DNA of 24,563 nucleotides from a virus. Positions 2,603 through 16,159 of the stretch are shown one piece after another; position 1 is the stretch's first letter; the number at the start of each line of letters is the position of its first letter. Below the pieces are notes generated by a model that saw only the letters and a list, made by a program, of their open reading frames with translations, ran no database searches and was not told the origin of the DNA. The translations under genes and the position numbers were made by a program. The stretch spans positions 1 to 24,563 of IMG/VR virus record IMGVR_UViG_3300030333_004311; one strand, written 5' to 3'.

Positions 2603-2703
2603 CAGAATGTGAGTGTAACGGAAAGCAATATCCATTGAAAGAAACAGGGTACTGGTTATGCATCGAATGTGGCGTACAATCCCCAATGGAGGGAGAGAAA
2701 TGA
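2599..2703 (+). CDS. Zinc-knuckle microprotein, 34 aa
   Basis: ATGA overlap with the preceding gene. It carries CEC (residues 4-6) and CIEC (21-24), with the spacing of a small zinc ribbon. It ends in the GGAGG-containing stretch that serves as ribosome-binding site for the gene at 2700. Confidence 0.6.
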   Translation: MTECECNGKQYPLKETGYWLCIECGVQSPMEGEK

Positions 2704-3224
2704 ACATCTTCGTACTTGATACCGACCCTCATGCTGCTGCACGAATGATGTGTGACAAACACATCCCGAAGATGCTTATTGAGTCTGCACAGATGATGGC
2801 ATCAGCACTACGACGCCATGGTTTAGGCGATGAAGACCTTCCTCTCACAAGGAGGGGTACGCCGTACAAAGGAGGATATCCACACCACCCTTGTACAAGG
2901 TGGGCAGGCGATTCATATGAGAACTTCATGTGGTTGTATCAACACGCAGAATCATTAGCACGAGAGTACACCAAAAGATTCGGTAAAAGGCACCGTACAC
3001 GTCGAGCCATTCGTGAAATGCATCAGACCTTCGACAAGCACTTTACCACTTTTGATTTCCCTGAAGATGGCCTCACACCATTCGCACTGGCTATGCCTGA
3101 CGAGTACCAGAATCAAGACCCTGTGAAGGCATACCGTGATTACTACAAGGCTGACAAGTCCTACTTCGCTAAGTGGGACAAGGGGACACCTGCTCCTAAC
3201 TGGTGGCAAGGGGTGACAGCATGA
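2700..3224 (+). CDS. Conserved phage-type protein of unknown function, 174 aa
   Basis: The chosen start is the ATG at 2700 (MNIFVLDTDP), which overlaps the previous stop and follows GGAGGGAG; a longer frame from 2658 only runs through the upstream gene. The pattern MNIFVLD-DP, DKH-KMLIESAQM, HPC-RWA and LTPFALAMPDEY resembles, from memory, a family common in marine phages that usually stays annotated as hypothetical. Several conserved His, Asp and Cys residues suggest an enzyme, but I cannot name a reaction. No signal or membrane segment. It ends in GVTA, encoded by the next gene's ribosome-binding motif. Confidence 0.85.
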   Translation: MNIFVLDTDPHAAARMMCDKHIPKMLIESAQMMASALRRHGLGDEDLPLTRRGTPYKGGYPHHPCTRWAGDSYENFMWLYQHAESLAREYTKRFGKRHRTRRAIREMHQTFDKHFTTFDFPEDGLTPFALAMPDEYQNQDPVKAYRDYYKADKSYFAKWDKGTPAPNWWQGVTA

Positions 3225-3400: not shown

Positions 3401-3543
3401 GATTCAGCAAAAAGTTGGAGGATGGGACATTCGTGAAATTGTGCTGGTATTGCGCTAATCGCAAACACATCCTCACACCAAATGGTAACAGAATGTATGC
3501 ACCGAACTGTAAGTGTGATGAGGGCGCGGAGGTGATGATGTGA
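3397..3543 (+). CDS. Zinc-binding microprotein, 48 aa
   Basis: ATGA overlap start. CWYC (residues 16-19) and CKC (38-40) bracket a basic, polar loop, as in a small zinc ribbon. It is followed by an overlapping GTG start for the next microgene. Confidence 0.6.
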   Translation: MRFSKKLEDGTFVKLCWYCANRKHILTPNGNRMYAPNCKCDEGAEVMM

Positions 3544-3689
3544 AGAAATGTGACAGTTGTAAAAGAGAAATTGAGAATGGAGAAGAGTGCTGGGAAATTC
3601 ATGGATTTCATGTTTGTATCAATGATGAGTGTCTCGGTGATGTTGGGATGAGCGTACTTCGTAACATCCGAACGGTGGTGACAGCGTGA
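3540..3689 (+). CDS. Zinc-binding microprotein, 49 aa
   Basis: GTGA overlap start. CDSC (residues 4-7) is followed by a lone Cys, HGFH and C-x4-C (about 26-31), a pattern like a treble-clef or LIM-type knuckle. The C-terminal TVVTA is produced by the GGTGACAGC motif that precedes the next start. Confidence 0.6.
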   Translation: MKKCDSCKREIENGEECWEIHGFHVCINDECLGDVGMSVLRNIRTVVTA

Positions 3690-4679: not shown

Positions 4680-4801
4680 GGAAAAAGATTAGAGGTTGTT
4701 GGTGTCACGGCGGCGCTGTGACCTGTTGGGAGTGCATGAAATATTGCACCTGCTATCAGCCGAATGATAGAGAGGGGCACTTATTGGAGGGTGTTAAATG
4801 A
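4676..4801 (+). CDS. Cysteine-rich microprotein, 41 aa
   Basis: ATGA overlap start. Six cysteines in 20 residues (CWC 8-10, CWEC 17-20, CTC 24-26) with a His could hold one or two metal ions. The tail carries GGAGGGTG, which is the ribosome-binding site of the next gene. Confidence 0.65.
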   Translation: MRKKIRGCWCHGGAVTCWECMKYCTCYQPNDREGHLLEGVK

Positions 4802-10211: not shown

Positions 10212-11435
10212 ATGGAAGAACAAATGAAAGAAGAAATAGAAAAGTATGCTGAGGTTATCGGCATTACTGTTGAGGATGCTTCAAGCATCTTTGATGGTAT
10301 TGTCAAGGATAACAGTTTGGACGTAAAAACCGAAGAGGGACTCTTAGTAGCCCGAAGCGTTTTCAGGTCTAAATTCGCTCAGACAAGAGCACGAATGAAG
10401 AAAGAAGAAGGTGGAGAAGAAACGACAACAGAATACACTGGACCTACATATACCCAAAAGGCAAAAGGTTTCTTTTGGGCTGTAGAGAATGCCACTGATT
10501 GGGAAGAGAGGAATAGGAATAACATCTTGGCTGAATACCAAAGAGATGCTGATTCTGTTCTACAGGCTGGAAAGGCTGCAATGGCAGTTCAATTGTCTGA
10601 TGGCCGATATGAAGTTACTCTCGTATTAGACGGAGAGCAGAACACTAAGGTTATGGAGAAATTGCCTGAAGTAAACCCAATGCAAGTTGATGATGACCGA
10701 TGGCTTATCCCTGTAGATACTCGGAAAGCATGGGCAAGCGGTCAATCAAATCAATCTTATGGTAAACCTCTACCTGCTAACCGTTGGCAAAGAACGTTGA
10801 TGTTCATTGGAACTCTTGGTGAAGGAGAACCTCAGCAATATCAATTGAGAGTTAATGGGGAACAAGCAGTAGATTTCCATCCAAGGACTTTTGCGCTATG
10901 TGAATTTGATTGTGTGCCTAACTCTAATAACCCGTCTAATCTTAGTGCAAGGAAAGACGGTAGCACAATTAATTCACTGAATTATCTGGATGAAGAAGTA
11001 GAGATTTTGGAAATCGTTCAGAAACTATTAGGTGAGAAGATTTCTGCATTAGTCGCTCTTGACTCTTATCATGCAGATAATTCACATAAGCCTTATTCTG
11101 AGCGCATTGTCGTTACAGATGGTAATGTGGCTAATATGAATCTTCAGCCTTATGATAACGGAAATCGAGTTATTTATCTGAGTGATTTGAACGCAGATTT
11201 CGATTATGAAGGAGAAGGGTTCTCTTCAACTGCGTGTTGGGTTCCTTCTAATATTGAAATTGATTTCGGAATTGGCAGCAACATTGTTGTTGTTGGTCGA
11301 ACCTCCCAAAGAGAAGTTGATGGTGAATTGTCAAACGTTAGCATCAACGTTCTAGGGTTATATGTTGTGGATAGACATGGTAGTGCAGATGTTCCTGTGC
11401 AACCAGAGGAGGACGACGATTACAGTTGGTTCTGA
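10212..11435 (+). CDS. Probable single-stranded DNA-binding protein (RPA-like), 407 aa
   Basis: ATG 10212 follows a strong AAAAAAGGAG site. The N-terminal 65 residues are helical, then a Gly/Glu/Thr-rich linker leads into a long beta-rich region (about 80-390) with patterns expected of OB folds (ALCEFDCV, NVSINVLGLYVV). The last residues are an acidic run ending in aromatics (EEDDDYSWF), like the protein-docking tail of bacterial SSB. There is no P-loop or zinc ribbon. It sits between the clamp loader and the RecA-like gene, and no other gene here fits an SSB. The assignment is inference from tail, beta content and context; another DNA-binding structural role is possible. Confidence 0.6.
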   Translation: MEEQMKEEIEKYAEVIGITVEDASSIFDGIVKDNSLDVKTEEGLLVARSVFRSKFAQTRARMKKEEGGEETTTEYTGPTYTQKAKGFFWAVENATDWEERNRNNILAEYQRDADSVLQAGKAAMAVQLSDGRYEVTLVLDGEQNTKVMEKLPEVNPMQVDDDRWLIPVDTRKAWASGQSNQSYGKPLPANRWQRTLMFIGTLGEGEPQQYQLRVNGEQAVDFHPRTFALCEFDCVPNSNNPSNLSARKDGSTINSLNYLDEEVEILEIVQKLLGEKISALVALDSYHADNSHKPYSERIVVTDGNVANMNLQPYDNGNRVIYLSDLNADFDYEGEGFSSTACWVPSNIEIDFGIGSNIVVVGRTSQREVDGELSNVSINVLGLYVVDRHGSADVPVQPEEDDDYSWF

Positions 11436-11436
11436 A

Positions 11437-11544
11437 TAAGATAGAGTTTAGGGGTTGGCCCAGTAATAGTAGAAAATCATCTTCCATGTTCATCGGGTGA
11501 GGAGGCTTCCATGTCCTCCTTTCTACTTCCCCTTCTCAATCTTA
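11437..11544 (+). ncRNA. Structured 5'-leader element A (before RecA-like gene)
   Basis: This gap folds into nested helices: 11437-11442 with 11539-11544, 11444-11446 with 11535-11537, GGGG 11451-11454 with CCCC 11529-11532, a 13-base 5' bulge (11455-11467), AGTAGAAA 11468-11475 with TTTCTACT 11520-11527, and an inner GGAGG/CCTCC hairpin (11501-11505 with 11515-11519). GTTCATCGG lies at 11488-11496. The outer helix runs into the AAGGAG ribosome-binding site of the next gene. Element B (12437-12551) shares the same architecture. Seen directly; a regulatory function is inferred. Confidence 0.6.
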
Positions 11545-11557
11545 AGGAGAGATAATT

Positions 11558-12436
11558 ATGGGATTAACATCAATGAGTAAACCAAAGCAAGCCGTAGATT
11601 CTGAACTTCAGAAGGAACTCCAATATCAAAATTGGAAGAAATTGACTTCTGAAGCAAGGAAGGAACAATTAGCAAGGAAACATTCCTTCATGGTTCTATC
11701 AATAGAAGGCCAAGCAAAGAAAGGTAAATCGGGATTAGGTCTGGATATCAGAACAGAAAAAGAAATTGAAGAAGGACACATTATTCGTTTCTTAGATTTT
11801 GATGATGGAGCAGAAGCAACTTGGAAAACATGTTGGGATTCAGACGAGAATATTTTCGTTTATTGTCCTAATCATTACAATAGTGATGGGACAGAGAATT
11901 ATTCCTTGACTATGCAGAATGCGCTAAACTTTATCCGAGAAACAGAAGAAATGATTGCAGATGAAGACACGAATGTCAGAGCAATTGTTGTAGATGGAAT
12001 GGATAAGTGGAATGACTGCGTGACTAACAAACTTCGTTATGAAAGAGTAAAAGGTGATAGAAAGAAAATGCAAGAGCCGATTCCGCCAACAGCATATGGA
12101 GCAAGAAACATTGACCATAACGAGTTGTTTATCAGTGTCTTGAAATTGAATTGTGATAAAGTATTCATCACTCATTTGAAGCCGACATTCAATGACCACA
12201 TGAATCCTACACCAACAGGTTTCGTACCTTCTTGGAACAAAGACGTTCCAGATAAGATGCTTCAAATGGTGAGTATTAGGGACGAGAGTGTAGGTAACAA
12301 CATCAAGTATGTTGCTCGGCTCAAGGCAAGTAAAACCAATCCCGGTATGATTGGTAAGACGTGGACTATCTTTGAATCTAAAGGAAACGAAGCCACATGG
12401 AACGGTATTCCTGAAATGCAAACGAGGGAAATTTGA
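11558..12436 (+). CDS. RecA-like P-loop ATPase, Sak4/RadA-related, 292 aa
   Basis: Likely promotes single-strand annealing or strand exchange in viral recombination. The start is ATG 11558, eight bases after AAGGAG. Walker A GQAKKGKS spans residues 51-58 and Walker B RAIVVDGMD 141-149 (Asp146). A RecA-core alpha/beta pattern follows, with VFITHLKP near 210 and a C-terminal ARLKASKT-like strand. There is no N-terminal DNA-binding domain as in full RadA, which fits the compact phage Sak4 group. It follows the SSB candidate, a common pairing for Sak-type annealing systems. ATPase call firm; subfamily moderately sure. Confidence 0.8.
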   Translation: MGLTSMSKPKQAVDSELQKELQYQNWKKLTSEARKEQLARKHSFMVLSIEGQAKKGKSGLGLDIRTEKEIEEGHIIRFLDFDDGAEATWKTCWDSDENIFVYCPNHYNSDGTENYSLTMQNALNFIRETEEMIADEDTNVRAIVVDGMDKWNDCVTNKLRYERVKGDRKKMQEPIPPTAYGARNIDHNELFISVLKLNCDKVFITHLKPTFNDHMNPTPTGFVPSWNKDVPDKMLQMVSIRDESVGNNIKYVARLKASKTNPGMIGKTWTIFESKGNEATWNGIPEMQTREI

Positions 12437-12551
12437 TTCACTACGGGGTTTGCCAAATAAAAACAACACAGTTCATCGGCTCTTTTCTCGCAGACTTGCG
12501 AGAAGTGCGGCAAGGGAGGGTGGTATCTTCCGGTTGTTCCCCATTAGTGAA
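12437..12551 (+). ncRNA. Structured 5'-leader element B (before PCNA)
   Basis: TTCACTA 12437-12443 pairs with TAGTGAA 12545-12551, GGGG 12445-12448 with CCCC 12539-12542, then a 13-base 5' bulge (12449-12461), AACAAC 12462-12467 with GTTGTT 12533-12538, and a perfect hairpin TTCTCGCA/TGCGAGAA (12485-12492 with 12497-12504). TTGCC 12450-12454 could pair with GGCAA 12509-12513 as a pseudoknot. GTTCATCGG lies at 12471-12479, as in element A. The element ends just before the AAGGTGAT site of the PCNA gene. A regulatory role is inferred. Confidence 0.6.
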
Positions 12552-12565
12552 AACAAGGTGATAAT

Positions 12566-13345
12566 ATGGAAATAGAAGTAAACAAAAAAGAGATTGTTGA
12601 AGCGTTGAAAAATGTAGAGATGAAAGGAAAATGGGCCACTTCAGGTGGGCTATCTTCAAAGTCTTTGGGAAATTATATTTCTTTTCAATTAGAGGATAAC
12701 TCTCTATTATTGATTAATTCAGATGAATCAACAACAGTCATAGAATCTATATCTGTTGATTCTGAAGATGAAGGTTCTTTCGTTTTAGATATTGAAACTC
12801 TAAAGAAGTACTTGACTAAAATGAATGATACGATTACATTTGAAATTGGAGATACAATCGTAATGAAGTCTGATGGTAAAAGAGCAACAATGCCTGTTGT
12901 TATTGAGCATCCCTTTCATGGTAGAATTGGTAGATTTATTTCGCAATGGCCGAACCTTTCCTTTGAAGAAGAATTAGAGAAGATACCTACTATTGGTTCA
13001 ATGAATCTAACCTGTGCTATTCAGATGACAGGAGAACAATTGTTCGATGCGATTGATGCTTGTGAGATTGTTAACAATGGAGTCTACAAAATTGATTATG
13101 TAGAAGAAGATGAGTTAAGCGAATCTAAGTGTGTTATCTCATCTGAAGAAATCATCTCATCTTATCGAGAAGAGATTGAATATTTATCCTCGATTGGGGA
13201 ATCTTCCACTGTTCTTTTCAGTGGACCATTACACCGATTCTTCGGTAAGAAAGACACTATCAATGTCTTCATCGGGGATGACCAACCAATAATTATGATT
13301 AGTAATAAGAGCGCATTGATACGTGCTCCAAGATTGAATATTTGA
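12566..13345 (+). CDS. pcn: PCNA-like sliding clamp, 259 aa
   Basis: A ring-forming processivity factor that tethers the polymerase, ligase and nucleases to DNA. ATG 12566 follows AAGGTGAT. The length is close to archaeal PCNA (about 245-250). The sequence has the two-domain beta pattern, a central charged linker, and the closing strands IIMISNKSALIRAPRLN, where the APR near the C-terminus matches the PCNA IAPR signature. It is divergent elsewhere, as viral clamps often are. Its neighbours are the polymerase and clamp loader, and several of them carry PIP-like tails that would bind this protein. Confidence 0.85.
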   Translation: MEIEVNKKEIVEALKNVEMKGKWATSGGLSSKSLGNYISFQLEDNSLLLINSDESTTVIESISVDSEDEGSFVLDIETLKKYLTKMNDTITFEIGDTIVMKSDGKRATMPVVIEHPFHGRIGRFISQWPNLSFEEELEKIPTIGSMNLTCAIQMTGEQLFDAIDACEIVNNGVYKIDYVEEDELSESKCVISSEEIISSYREEIEYLSSIGESSTVLFSGPLHRFFGKKDTINVFIGDDQPIIMISNKSALIRAPRLNI

Positions 13346-13354
13346 GGTGAAGGA

Positions 13355-13474
13355 ATGAGAAGAAAAACACCCGCACGCTGGACATTGAAGAATCTACGTC
13401 AATTCTATTTTTCTAAATTGAAAGCAAAAGTTGTCACTGATGAATATGAATATGAGGAATGGGAATATCAGTGA
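13355..13474 (+). CDS. Small protein with basic head and acidic Tyr/Glu tail, 39 aa
   Basis: ATG 13355 follows GGTGAAGGA. The first 27 residues are basic and aromatic (RRKTPARWTLKNLRQFYF), the last 12 very acidic (DEYEYEEWEYQ). The bipolar charge suggests a peptide that bridges a nucleic acid and a protein. It overlaps the polymerase gene by 16 bases, so translation is likely coupled. Function unknown. Confidence 0.55.
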   Translation: MRRKTPARWTLKNLRQFYFSKLKAKVVTDEYEYEEWEYQ

Positions 13475-15138
13475 TTATAACTTGGATAGATAGAGATAAG
13501 TCTATCAAAATAAGATGGAGAGATGAAAAGAATAATCGTAAAGAGAAAAACATAAACGACTTTGAACCTTATTTCTTTATTCGTTCTACTGATAAAAGAC
13601 CAGAAACATACAAGACTCGACATTATATTGGTCAAGGTAAATCAATTAAGCAAACTGGATTCTTCAAATATAAGACTGGAAATTACTACAACCTGAATAA
13701 AGAATCTCTGACAAAGGTATTCTATTCTCACCCTAAAGATGCAAAGAATGCAAGAAAGGTCTTTGCTGCTACTTGGGAAGGAGATGTTCCTATTCTCCGC
13801 AGATATTGCGTTGATGAATTGAAGACTGTTCCTGAATACGAATTACGTAAATGGTATTGGGATATGGAATGGCTACCAGATGAACACGAACATGGTGGAG
13901 CAATTACCGCAATTAGTGTATATGATAATTATACGAATAAAATCAAACTGTATTGGTGGAGTCATTGGCACGATAAATCAAACCAAATTATGAGAAGATT
14001 CAATTCCGAAAAAGCAATGTTGGAATGTTTCGTAAAGGACATGCAAAAGCAAGACCCTGATATGTTAATTGCTTGGTGGGGATTACAGTCTGACGTTCCT
14101 AAATTGATTCAAAGATTATTCGAAAATGGTATTGACCCAAGGGGCCTTTCTCCATACAAGGAAGTAAAGGGAGTAGGATTCAATCATATAGGGAAATTAG
14201 AGTATAGTGGAATTGAACAACCTATACGTGGGCGTCTTTGTCTTAACTTAGATTTAGCATTTGAAAGACAATGGATGGATGCTCAAAGAGGAACCCTACC
14301 TTCAACTTCATTAGAATATTGTGCGAGCGTTTCTGTTGGTGAAGGGAAGAAAAAGGAATCTAAATTTACTGATAGGAATGAATTCTTTATGAAAGCGTGG
14401 GAAGAAGATACCACGAATTATTTGGAATACTGTATGCAAGATTCAGAATTACTCTACAGGATAGATGAAGAGATGGGATTGAGTGAAGGAGTATTAGCAA
14501 TCCAAAAGTTGGTTAAAGCACCCTTTGAGGACTGCTTCTTTGTCAGTCATATGGGGAGTACATATTTCATGAGAAACGCATGGTGGAAAGCCCCAACGGG
14601 TGAGTATGCTGAAAAGAAAGAATATGATGGAGCACTCATCTATAATCCGCTTGATGAAGGGACTAATGGATTACACACTAATGTTGCTGCATTCGATTTT
14701 GCCTCCCTGTATCCATCATGTATTCTTGCAAGGAATATATCTTGGGAAACTAAGAGTGAAACAGAAACAGAATTCGCAGTTAACATAAGGACACCAAGAG
14801 ACTTTTCAGATTGCATACAAGAAGATTGGAAATATTACAAGACAGATGAGTTGGGTCTTTTGCCAAATGCCATCGCTACTTTGAAACCATTGAGAAAGGA
14901 ATACAAGGCTAAAATGTTAGAGGCACTCAAATCTGAAAATAAGAAAGACTACATCAAGTGGAATTCTATGCAAATGGCAACTAAGCGACTATTGGCTTCT
15001 TTCTACGGTGTAGTGGCTCTACAGGGCTTTGGATGGTATGATGTGGATTTGGCTGCAAGTATAACGGCAAGTGCAAGAGAAGCAATTAGAGAAGCAGCAT
15101 TCAAAGTGAGAGAAATAGGAGAAGAGGTGGCAGCGTGA
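13459..15138 (+). CDS. polB: Family B DNA polymerase, N-terminal part (exonuclease, motifs A and B), 559 aa
   Basis: The larger piece of a split replicative polymerase. The proofreading exonuclease looks complete: Exo I DMEW (Asp135, Glu137), an Exo II-like GLQSDVP (Asp212) and Exo III YCMQD (Tyr324, Asp328). The polymerase palm and fingers carry motif A FDFASLYPS (Asp413) and motif B KRLLASFYG (Lys509-Gly517). The protein stops after AREAIREAAFKVREIGEE plus VAA, exactly where family B enzymes run into motif C. Motif C is on the gene starting at 15233. The final VAA is encoded by the GGTGGCAGC junction motif of the inserted microgene. The two products should assemble into one enzyme. Confidence 0.95.
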   Translation: MGISVIITWIDRDKSIKIRWRDEKNNRKEKNINDFEPYFFIRSTDKRPETYKTRHYIGQGKSIKQTGFFKYKTGNYYNLNKESLTKVFYSHPKDAKNARKVFAATWEGDVPILRRYCVDELKTVPEYELRKWYWDMEWLPDEHEHGGAITAISVYDNYTNKIKLYWWSHWHDKSNQIMRRFNSEKAMLECFVKDMQKQDPDMLIAWWGLQSDVPKLIQRLFENGIDPRGLSPYKEVKGVGFNHIGKLEYSGIEQPIRGRLCLNLDLAFERQWMDAQRGTLPSTSLEYCASVSVGEGKKKESKFTDRNEFFMKAWEEDTTNYLEYCMQDSELLYRIDEEMGLSEGVLAIQKLVKAPFEDCFFVSHMGSTYFMRNAWWKAPTGEYAEKKEYDGALIYNPLDEGTNGLHTNVAAFDFASLYPSCILARNISWETKSETETEFAVNIRTPRDFSDCIQEDWKYYKTDELGLLPNAIATLKPLRKEYKAKMLEALKSENKKDYIKWNSMQMATKRLLASFYGVVALQGFGWYDVDLAASITASAREAIREAAFKVREIGEEVAA

Positions 15139-15236
15139 GTCAATGTATAGAATGTGAGAAACCTGTTCCTCAAAAAGAATTGATTGATGGGGATTTTTGT
15201 TTTGAGTGTTGGTATAAGGATGAGTGGAAGAGATGA
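15135..15236 (+). CDS. Zinc-ribbon microprotein lodged between the two polymerase genes, 33 aa
   Basis: GTG start in a GTGA overlap with the polymerase stop; its own stop overlaps the downstream polymerase start (ATGA). Two clean pairs, CIEC (residues 4-7) and CFEC (22-25), make a minimal zinc ribbon. It is like the microproteins of the first 5.5 kb and the one at 17006. The upstream junction (GAGGTGGCAGCGTGA) is of the same type as junctions in that train, which suggests a cassette insertion. It might help the two polymerase parts assemble, but no sequence feature shows this. Confidence 0.65.
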   Translation: MSQCIECEKPVPQKELIDGDFCFECWYKDEWKR

Positions 15237-16159
15237 AGGTAGTATATGCACACACTGATTCTTTGTACGTCCCTGTTCCCTCAATAGAGATGGCTCAAGA
15301 CATTCAGAAAGTATTGAATGAGCACATACAACAAAATGTATTTCCTAATATTATGGGATTAGAAGACCACCCAATGGATTTAGAATTCGAGAAATACTAT
15401 TCTGTATTAGGAGTAGGAGCAACAAGAAATAGAAATGCTGGTTACATTAATTGGAAAGATGGAGTATATCTTGCTGAACCTGAGTTCTTCGCTACAGGGT
15501 TCTCCGTCAAGAGAATAGCCGAATCCAAATTAGCGAAAGAGGTACAGAAGAAAACCTTAGAGATGTGGATTAATCAGAAAACAGAACAAGAGATTGTTAC
15601 CTTTGTTAAGAAAAAATATAATGATGTTCTTAAAGGTAGAATAGATAAATTAAACTTAGTTAAAAGAAGTAGAGTCAAAGAGAATAGATTGACTATAAAA
15701 TGTCGTTGTGGTAAGAAATACAATGTAGATTATGTTAGAAAATTATTGAGTATATTGCCTGATTCATTATGTGAAAAGGATACCTGCAATAGCAAATTAA
15801 TATCTTGCACTACTGTAGAAAACAAAAGACCCACATTTGGCGGAGGGTTTGCTGGAATGCTCTATTACAATGAGCACGTAAATCCTCAACAGAAATTAGA
15901 TGATTCGTTTTATCATATCAAATGTAAATTTAATCCGAATCAAAAACAGACCTTTACTAATTGGAATGGTAAAGAGAATAAAGCGGGATATATAGCCGTT
16001 AGAAATTTAGAAGAATTGGAACCCTTTGAACCAGATTGGGCCTTCTTAGCAGAGGCTGAGGTTCTCAAAAAGGTGAAGCCCATATTTGATGCAATGGAAT
16101 GGGACGCATCACAAATAAAAATAGATGAAAGTCAAACAAGTTTAGGAGATTGGTTTTAA
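15233..16159 (+). CDS. polB: Family B DNA polymerase, C-terminal part (motif C, thumb, PIP box), 308 aa
   Basis: Start taken as ATG 15233 in an ATGA overlap; GTG 15224 is an alternative. It begins directly with motif C, VVYAHTDSLYV, where the usual DTD is HTD: the catalytic Asp9 is kept but the first Asp is His7. Next come a KKRY-region equivalent (YYSVLGVGATRNRNAGY) and the thumb pattern TGFSVKRIAESKLAKEVQ. An unusual Cys cluster follows (Cys157, 159, 180, 185, 192). The C-terminus is QTSLGDWF, a canonical PCNA-binding PIP box. Together with the gene at 13459 this makes a complete polymerase of about 865 residues. Confidence 0.93.
   Translation: MKVVYAHTDSLYVPVPSIEMAQDIQKVLNEHIQQNVFPNIMGLEDHPMDLEFEKYYSVLGVGATRNRNAGYINWKDGVYLAEPEFFATGFSVKRIAESKLAKEVQKKTLEMWINQKTEQEIVTFVKKKYNDVLKGRIDKLNLVKRSRVKENRLTIKCRCGKKYNVDYVRKLLSILPDSLCEKDTCNSKLISCTTVENKRPTFGGGFAGMLYYNEHVNPQQKLDDSFYHIKCKFNPNQKQTFTNWNGKENKAGYIAVRNLEELEPFEPDWAFLAEAEVLKKVKPIFDAMEWDASQIKIDESQTSLGDWF

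Follow-up and report, generated by a model that had tools for sequence, protein, structure and literature searches.

In T4, the leader of gene 32, which encodes a single-stranded DNA-binding protein (SSB), contains a pseudoknot and serves as an autogenous translational operator (PMC535899, PMC3014915). For the STAXI motif, doubt has been raised as to whether the element acts as DNA or as RNA (PMC2864571), a doubt comparable to the one weighed here. We describe a structured RNA of which two copies flank the RecA-like gene of a viral sequence. In this RNA an outer stem clamps an H-type pseudoknot whose ARUAAW loop is conserved. The element forms a new RNA family within a known kind, the cis-acting structured leader, and is unusual in both host range and architecture; its independent members show compensatory changes in a common structure, and the pseudoknot itself covaries. 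Surface oceans are rich in viruses that infect Marine Group II archaea (Poseidoniales), and no description of gene regulation in Poseidoniales viruses was found in the open-access literature.

The window, by which we mean the whole stretch of 24,563 nucleotides that was analysed, comprises positions 1 to 24,563 of the IMG/VR record IMGVR_UViG_3300030333_004311. Its gene set presumably places it near the magroviruses, i.e. marine archaeal viruses, whose gene content it resembles. A search of INPHARED (annotated phages) with the RecA-like protein found nothing and no named relative. In the open reading frame list of the window, a frame closing at 11435 is followed by one that opens at 11558, and a frame closing at 12436 by one that opens at 12566; the genes around the two gaps are as follows.

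10212..11435, + strand: SSB-like gene upstream of copy 1 (OB folds, acidic tail ending in WF)
11558..12436, + strand: RecA-like ATPase gene (AlphaFold model and RecA/RadA/KaiC match)
12566..13345, + strand: sliding-clamp gene, DNA polymerase processivity factor (profile matches)

These identities were assigned because of fold and profile matches. The SSB-like protein was modelled by AlphaFold with a pLDDT of 81, and its best Foldseek matches were SSBs and other OB-fold binders of single-stranded DNA; the model of the RecA-like ATPase has a low pLDDT of 59, and its match to RecA/RadA/KaiC has an E value of about 5e-6. The sliding clamp matches PHROG 947 (E 8e-7) and the profile of DNA polymerase III beta (1vpk; E 2e-5). 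The family B DNA polymerase is present as two ORFs, 13459-15138 and 15224-16159, with 85 bases between them (a split gene, a frameshift or an insertion).

An earlier note on this DNA had drawn the gaps 11436-11557 and 12437-12565 with an outer helix, a GGGG/CCCC helix and an inner helix each, the outer helix ending next to a Shine-Dalgarno sequence, and the sequence bears all of this out in both gaps. They are not the only gaps of more than 100 bases, as had been stated, since 2380-2657, 3401-3685, 4680-4797 and 13346-13458 are also of this size. The strand order of the element, from 5' to 3', is P0, P1, the pseudoknot 5' strand, the ARUAAW loop, P2, a variable loop or hairpin P3, the pseudoknot 3' strand, hairpin P4, and then the closing strands of P2, P1 and P0. 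The 13-base 5' bulge of the original drawing has to be divided: its 3' half (ARTAAW) is indeed conserved and unpaired, but the 5' half forms a pseudoknot with the inner loop. In copy 1 the following parts were distinguished.

11437..11544, + strand: copy 1 of the pseudoknot RNA at the SSB-like/RecA-like boundary (match of model R2 and homologous viruses)
11437..11446, + strand: P0 5' strand (TAAGAT and GAG), pairing with 11535-11544
11451..11454, + strand: P1 5' strand GGGG, pairing with CCCC at 11529-11532
11458..11461, + strand: pseudoknot 5' strand GCCC, inside the former bulge, pairing with GGGT at 11495-11498
11462..11467, + strand: conserved loop L1, AGTAAT (ARTAAW in nearly all copies)
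11468..11475, + strand: P2 5' strand AGTAGAAA, pairing with TTTCTACT at 11520-11527
11495..11498, + strand: pseudoknot 3' strand GGGT, partner of GCCC at 11458-11461
11501..11519, + strand: hairpin P4 (GGAGG ... CCTCC); P4 covaries in type I copies
11544..11549, + strand: AAGGAG, a Shine-Dalgarno-like site for the RecA-like gene, directly adjoining P0 (from the sequence)

Copy 1 is kept at the SSB-like/RecA-like boundary of homologous viruses, and its outer helix (TAAGAT 11437-11442 with ATCTTA 11539-11544) belongs to a P0 that is re-formed from different sequences in L003, L009, L011, L013, L015 and L019. Its pseudoknot is weak, with four base pairs only, one of them G.U, and covaries in relatives. 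Copy 2 has the same plan, with a longer pseudoknot.

12437..12551, + strand: copy 2 of the pseudoknot RNA at the RecA-like/clamp boundary (models R1 and R2)
12437..12443, + strand: P0 5' strand TTCACTA, pairing with TAGTGAA at 12545-12551
12445..12448, + strand: P1 5' strand GGGG, pairing with CCCC at 12539-12542
12449..12454, + strand: pseudoknot 5' strand TTTGCC, pairing with GGCAAG at 12509-12514
12455..12461, + strand: conserved loop L1, AAATAAA (alignment of homologs)
12462..12467, + strand: P2 5' strand AACAAC, pairing with GTTGTT at 12533-12538
12485..12504, + strand: variable hairpin P3 (TTCTCGCA/TGCGAGAA), from single-sequence folding
12509..12514, + strand: pseudoknot 3' strand GGCAAG, partner of TTTGCC at 12449-12454
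12515..12531, + strand: hairpin P4 (GGAGG ... CTTCC), from the sequence and present in relatives

Across the relatives at the clamp boundary, P0 of copy 2 varies with compensation and P2 is paired in 100% of cases, with double changes in four of its six pairs, while the P3 hairpin is variable or missing. Homologous loci were pulled from IMG/VR with the RecA-like protein alone, a selection independent of RNA structure, and they keep all three drawn helices through compensatory changes, as the earlier note had proposed from its two copies. A joint MAFFT alignment of all copies misaligned the helices; these were parsed sequence by sequence, and the types were aligned separately. Between the pseudoknot and P2, copies of type I have GAUAGU, a hairpin and GAA, whereas type II, comprising the clamp copy of the window and its relatives, has a longer pseudoknot and another small hairpin. 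In alignment A6 (the protein-recovered clamp-gap set), 91.4% of cells were paired, against 37-48% when the partners were slid by one to three columns, and double changes were seen in 9 of 18 pairs. In alignment A8, made of 28 type I copies from elsewhere, the corresponding values were 85.4% and 40-46%, with 17 of 23 pairs doubly changed; these copies had been pre-filtered for pairing in P1 and P2, which biases those two helices and leaves the pseudoknot and P4 unfiltered. Altogether, 59 distinct copies were parsed into helices, and 27 different P2 helices occur among them, the copies having been selected for pairing.

The pseudoknot was examined separately. Its core in A8 (columns 16-18 with 60-62) is paired in 83 of 84 cells, the exception being a visible misalignment, and one of its pairs shows all four Watson-Crick types. 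A permutation test, in which the pairing of each inner loop with its own 5' strand was set against its pairing with 5' strands taken from other copies, gave 0/5000 for the clamp set, 1/5000 for the combined protein-recovered set and 33/5000 for the others; the RecA set alone gave 379/5000, and no significance was reached when the pseudoknot was sought at free positions in single sequences. Beside the pseudoknot helix, columns 15 and 63 of A8 are A.G in 21 copies and G.A in 4, possibly a covarying non-canonical pair. In single-sequence folding the drawn structure is not the minimum for copy 1, and the z values against shuffles were -1.2 and -1.9; folding is barely better than that of shuffles, and the evidence for the fold is therefore comparative and not thermodynamic.

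Within the helices, 37 cells are G.U and 5 are A.C, and the element therefore acts as a sense-strand RNA. This asymmetry bears on a reading at the DNA level, for example as a cruciform or a replication-origin structure, which would suit neighbouring genes that act on DNA; the strong excess of G.U over A.C, together with the constant sense orientation, leaves it highly improbable, and the strand asymmetry largely refutes it already.

Model R2 was built from A8 with the window excluded from its seed, and it recovered copy 1 (11446-11536, 32.4 bits, E 1.8e-5) as well as copy 2 (12440-12547, E 0.003). Model R1 scored copy 2 at 87.7 bits, its seed including L001, whose sequence in this region does not differ from that of the window. 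A search of relatives by covariance model, which the earlier note had called for, found further copies, and the test it had set beforehand as able to refute the idea did not refute it: copies recur and pair changes are compensated. In total, about 60 distinct copies are present in magrovirus-like contigs, and a record usually has one to three of them. Searching IMG/VR with a degenerate pattern had yielded 43 stretches. R2 matches occur in 33 of 35 viral records examined, which were mostly chosen as relatives or matches, so that the fraction is not a prevalence, and three viral records have adjacent tandem copies by R2. In a control of 80 unrelated viral loci (735 kb), R2 gave one match, a known copy, and nothing new. 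A loose viral pattern, GGTTTNNNNANTAATN{18,48}GATAGT, produced chance matches that were re-scored by R2 as a negative control.

It could be argued that two gaps merely fold somewhat alike by chance, without a functional element; the unremarkable single-sequence folding fits this, and so does the 9-mer GTTCATCGG shared by the gaps, whose sharing is a coincidence. This 9-mer had been put forward as a conserved motif, but its place in the structure differs between one copy and the other and homologs do not retain it, and it was dropped after the homolog alignment. The roughly 60 copies, the compensatory changes, the blind recovery by covariance model and the empty 735 kb control refute the chance reading and reduce its probability to almost nothing.

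The element is present in the clamp gap of all near relatives fetched by the RecA-like protein and in the RecA gap of most, being missing there in L010, L012 and L021-L024, where its loss coincides with overlapping or nearly abutting genes. It was not found at the RecA and clamp boundaries of distant relatives, some of which carry it before other genes instead. The element can be lost, duplicated in tandem or found at another boundary in a different lineage. Rfam 15 at gathering score gave no match in the window and only tRNA matches in nine relative loci, and relaxed thresholds applied to representative copies gave nothing credible, in line with the earlier statement that the fold matches no known riboswitch or ribozyme class. 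No paper describing the element was found in the open-access literature, a search that did not cover subscription papers and preprints. The proposal of an uncatalogued, sense-oriented structured RNA in the leaders of the RecA-like and clamp genes is upheld by the homologs, the covariation and the lack of an Rfam match.

Most copies begin 1-16 nt past the upstream stop codon (some up to about 33); the stretch from their end to the next start codon mostly measures 13-26 nt and contains the Shine-Dalgarno sequence. Exceptions to this spacing are tandem copies, helicase-leader copies (31-132 nt) and host copies (42-53 nt), and in a few cases 58-125 nt separate the element from the start codon. About a dozen unrelated gene families are found downstream, always with the element in sense orientation relative to the gene: the RecA-like ATPase, two clamp families, a UvrD-like helicase, a small Zn-ribbon protein, several small unknown proteins and possibly a GNAT acetyltransferase. 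Control specific to the RecA-like ATPase and PCNA, as originally suggested, does not agree with this variety, nor with a copy that forms a tRNA intron. In L146 (1807-1965, minus strand), an otherwise intact tRNA-Lys(UUU) is interrupted at 37/38 by an 85-nt intron that is a full copy of the element, and a helicase gene of the kind that follows other copies begins 132 nt later. Position 37/38 is the usual position of archaeal tRNA introns. No tRNA was found in the window, so copies 1 and 2 have no tRNA exons there, and only L146 satisfies the definition of an archaeal tRNA intron.

The intron makes relevant a reading as an RNA-processing or stability element, which would block nucleases or mark cleavage, segment polycistronic mRNAs by lifetime and also act in a tRNA intron. 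The exactly intercistronic placement of a compact, autonomous domain, the tandem copies and the tRNA-Lys(UUU) intron at 37/38 fit such a role, which we nevertheless consider rather unlikely given that the element keeps strikingly close to the next Shine-Dalgarno sequence and not to 3' ends in general.

To learn about the distribution in hosts, 293 Poseidoniales genomes were searched by pattern. Among the 32 matches, those read showed the structure only in G044 and G045; G063 has the same core sequence, a sequence match in which the structure was not read, so that the element occurs in 3 of 293 genomes by pattern when G063 is counted on its core. The other matches were rejected as mostly coincidences within coding sequence. 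R2 over 146 Poseidoniales genomes found G044 only, with a filter that loses weak matches. It is therefore in essence a viral element, which hosts carry rarely and at a single locus. This rare Poseidoniales copy (L153 1501-1582 and L183 1262-1342) is followed after about 42-53 nt by a small cysteine-rich ORF, and the L153 contig also bears purM-like and gatB-like genes. Pattern matches in bacteria were dismissed as chance with the exception of L169, assigned to a Maricaulis MAG, which has tandem copies and an ORF resembling that at 2658-3224 of the window; it is probably a mis-binned virus contig.

Such a host range matters for a reading as a ligand-binding riboswitch class, in which the ARUAAW loop and the pseudoknot would form a small-molecule pocket for translational control of replication genes. 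A highly conserved unpaired core amid freely varying helices, the H-type pseudoknot architecture, the tandem copies and the several unrelated genes are what such a class might display. Riboswitch classes usually occur in cells too, whereas this element is nearly absent from the host (3/293 Poseidoniales by pattern, 1/146 by model); the downstream genes do not belong to a metabolic pathway and no conserved expression platform was seen, which makes a riboswitch an improbable explanation.

A further 80 loci were fetched with the SSB-like protein. The element is found at the SSB-like boundary in 18 of 22 close relatives (L004 counted and duplicates included), and R2 finds no copy at that boundary in the distant loci. 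Many of the distant loci bear other conserved leaders just after the SSB-like stop codon, which fall into three classes.

Class A leader, after the SSB-like stop: two hairpins (L429, L431, L441, L452, L453, L455, L456)
Class B leader, longer, after the SSB-like stop: outer helix UCUAAUCUC/GAGAUUAG and CCCC/GGGG (L407, L410, L415, L417, L420, L424, L454)
Class C leader, after the SSB-like stop: CUCC/GGAG and ACAAGU/ACUUGU pairs (L408, L423, L426, L443, L448, L450)

The class A consensus is GUGUAGYCGUUGGCGUUAAUGACGGYCAUANAGGUGCGAAGCCU, and among six sequences compared, three pairs are doubly changed; class B varies too little for covariation to be judged, and class C ends in a AGGUGCGAAGCCU hairpin that it has in common with class A. 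Rfam gave no match in 15 loci with these alternative leaders. Different structured-looking leaders at the SSB-like boundary are expected if this boundary is a control point, and their variety suggests widespread post-transcriptional control of replication genes in such viruses. Strict autogenous control by the SSB is doubtful, as the copies follow the SSB-like gene and none precedes it.

Position, conservation and the pattern of gain and loss suggest that the element probably regulates gene expression. Our main proposal, in which we have about even confidence, is a cis-acting, factor-binding leader that would control the downstream cistron. The compact pseudoknot domain would form part of the 5' leader of certain cistrons in polycistronic magrovirus mRNAs, and its fixed loop and pseudoknot core would be the putative binding site of one trans-acting factor, most likely a viral replication or RNA-binding protein and less likely a small ligand. 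In the window copies the outer stem reaches the ribosome-binding site or its close vicinity, and the fold, bound or unbound, might set initiation downstream and uncouple that cistron from the upstream gene, as the T4 gene-32 operator and ribosomal-protein leaders do. Covariation, the sense strand, placement between stop codon and Shine-Dalgarno sequence and recurrence before unrelated genes argue for such a leader. Against it stand the tRNA-Lys intron copy, for which translational control makes no sense, copies that were lost in some viruses without an obvious substitute, and the few elements at 58-125 nt from a start codon. Inspection of the alignment of homologous loci revealed no conserved alternative pairing that would hide the Shine-Dalgarno sequence. 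The intron copy and the lack of an evident Shine-Dalgarno switch leave the processing/stability, riboswitch and ribozyme readings some probability beside the factor-binding leader.

For a new self-cleaving ribozyme with the HDV-like pseudoknot order (P1a-P2a-P3-P1b-P4-P2b), one can cite the shared strand order, with the pseudoknot as P1 and P2, P3 and P4 as their namesakes, and the many conserved unpaired bases. We regard it as very unlikely, given that the segment equivalent to J4/2 is a conserved GAA without the catalytic C, the counterpart of loop L3 varies, the whole RNA is closed by an additional helix and no Rfam ribozyme matches; membership among HDV-like ribozymes was rejected on the invariant GAA where the J4/2 active-site C belongs. 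More broadly, we tentatively entertain the idea that archaeal viruses possess a new class of autonomous RNA, which might sense a ligand or a viral protein reporting the replication state, or might cleave itself, and be used as an interchangeable module across a replication regulon and a tRNA. A defined fold, some 60 copies, gain and loss, and the tandem and tRNA-intron forms make the mechanism testable in vitro, a route that is open although virus and host are uncultured.

Among known systems, the T4 gene-32 pseudoknot operator would be the best analogy to the factor-binding leader. In both, a pseudoknot precedes the ribosome-binding site of a viral gene for DNA replication, and translational control of replication genes, established in T4, would be shared by the element as inferred here. 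The T4 knot is small, H-type and located at the start of its own mRNA, whereas the knot of the element is clamped by an outer stem and precedes many genes; no sequence relation is claimed. STAXI (Rfam; PMC2864571) is likewise a pseudoknot, often in tandem and near SSB and other DNA-handling genes, but it is bacterial, and the element has no Rfam match at gathering or relaxed thresholds. The leaders of ribosomal protein S15 and other ribosomal proteins resemble the situation at the SSB-like boundary, where different RNAs occupy one leader across lineages, although the element involves no ribosomal protein genes. HDV-like ribozymes share the order of paired strands and differ from the element in the J4/2 catalytic C, which it lacks, in its variable L3 and in its additional closing helix. 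Archaeal bulge-helix-bulge tRNA introns are matched by the L146 copy, whereas all others lie between protein genes, without tRNA exons.
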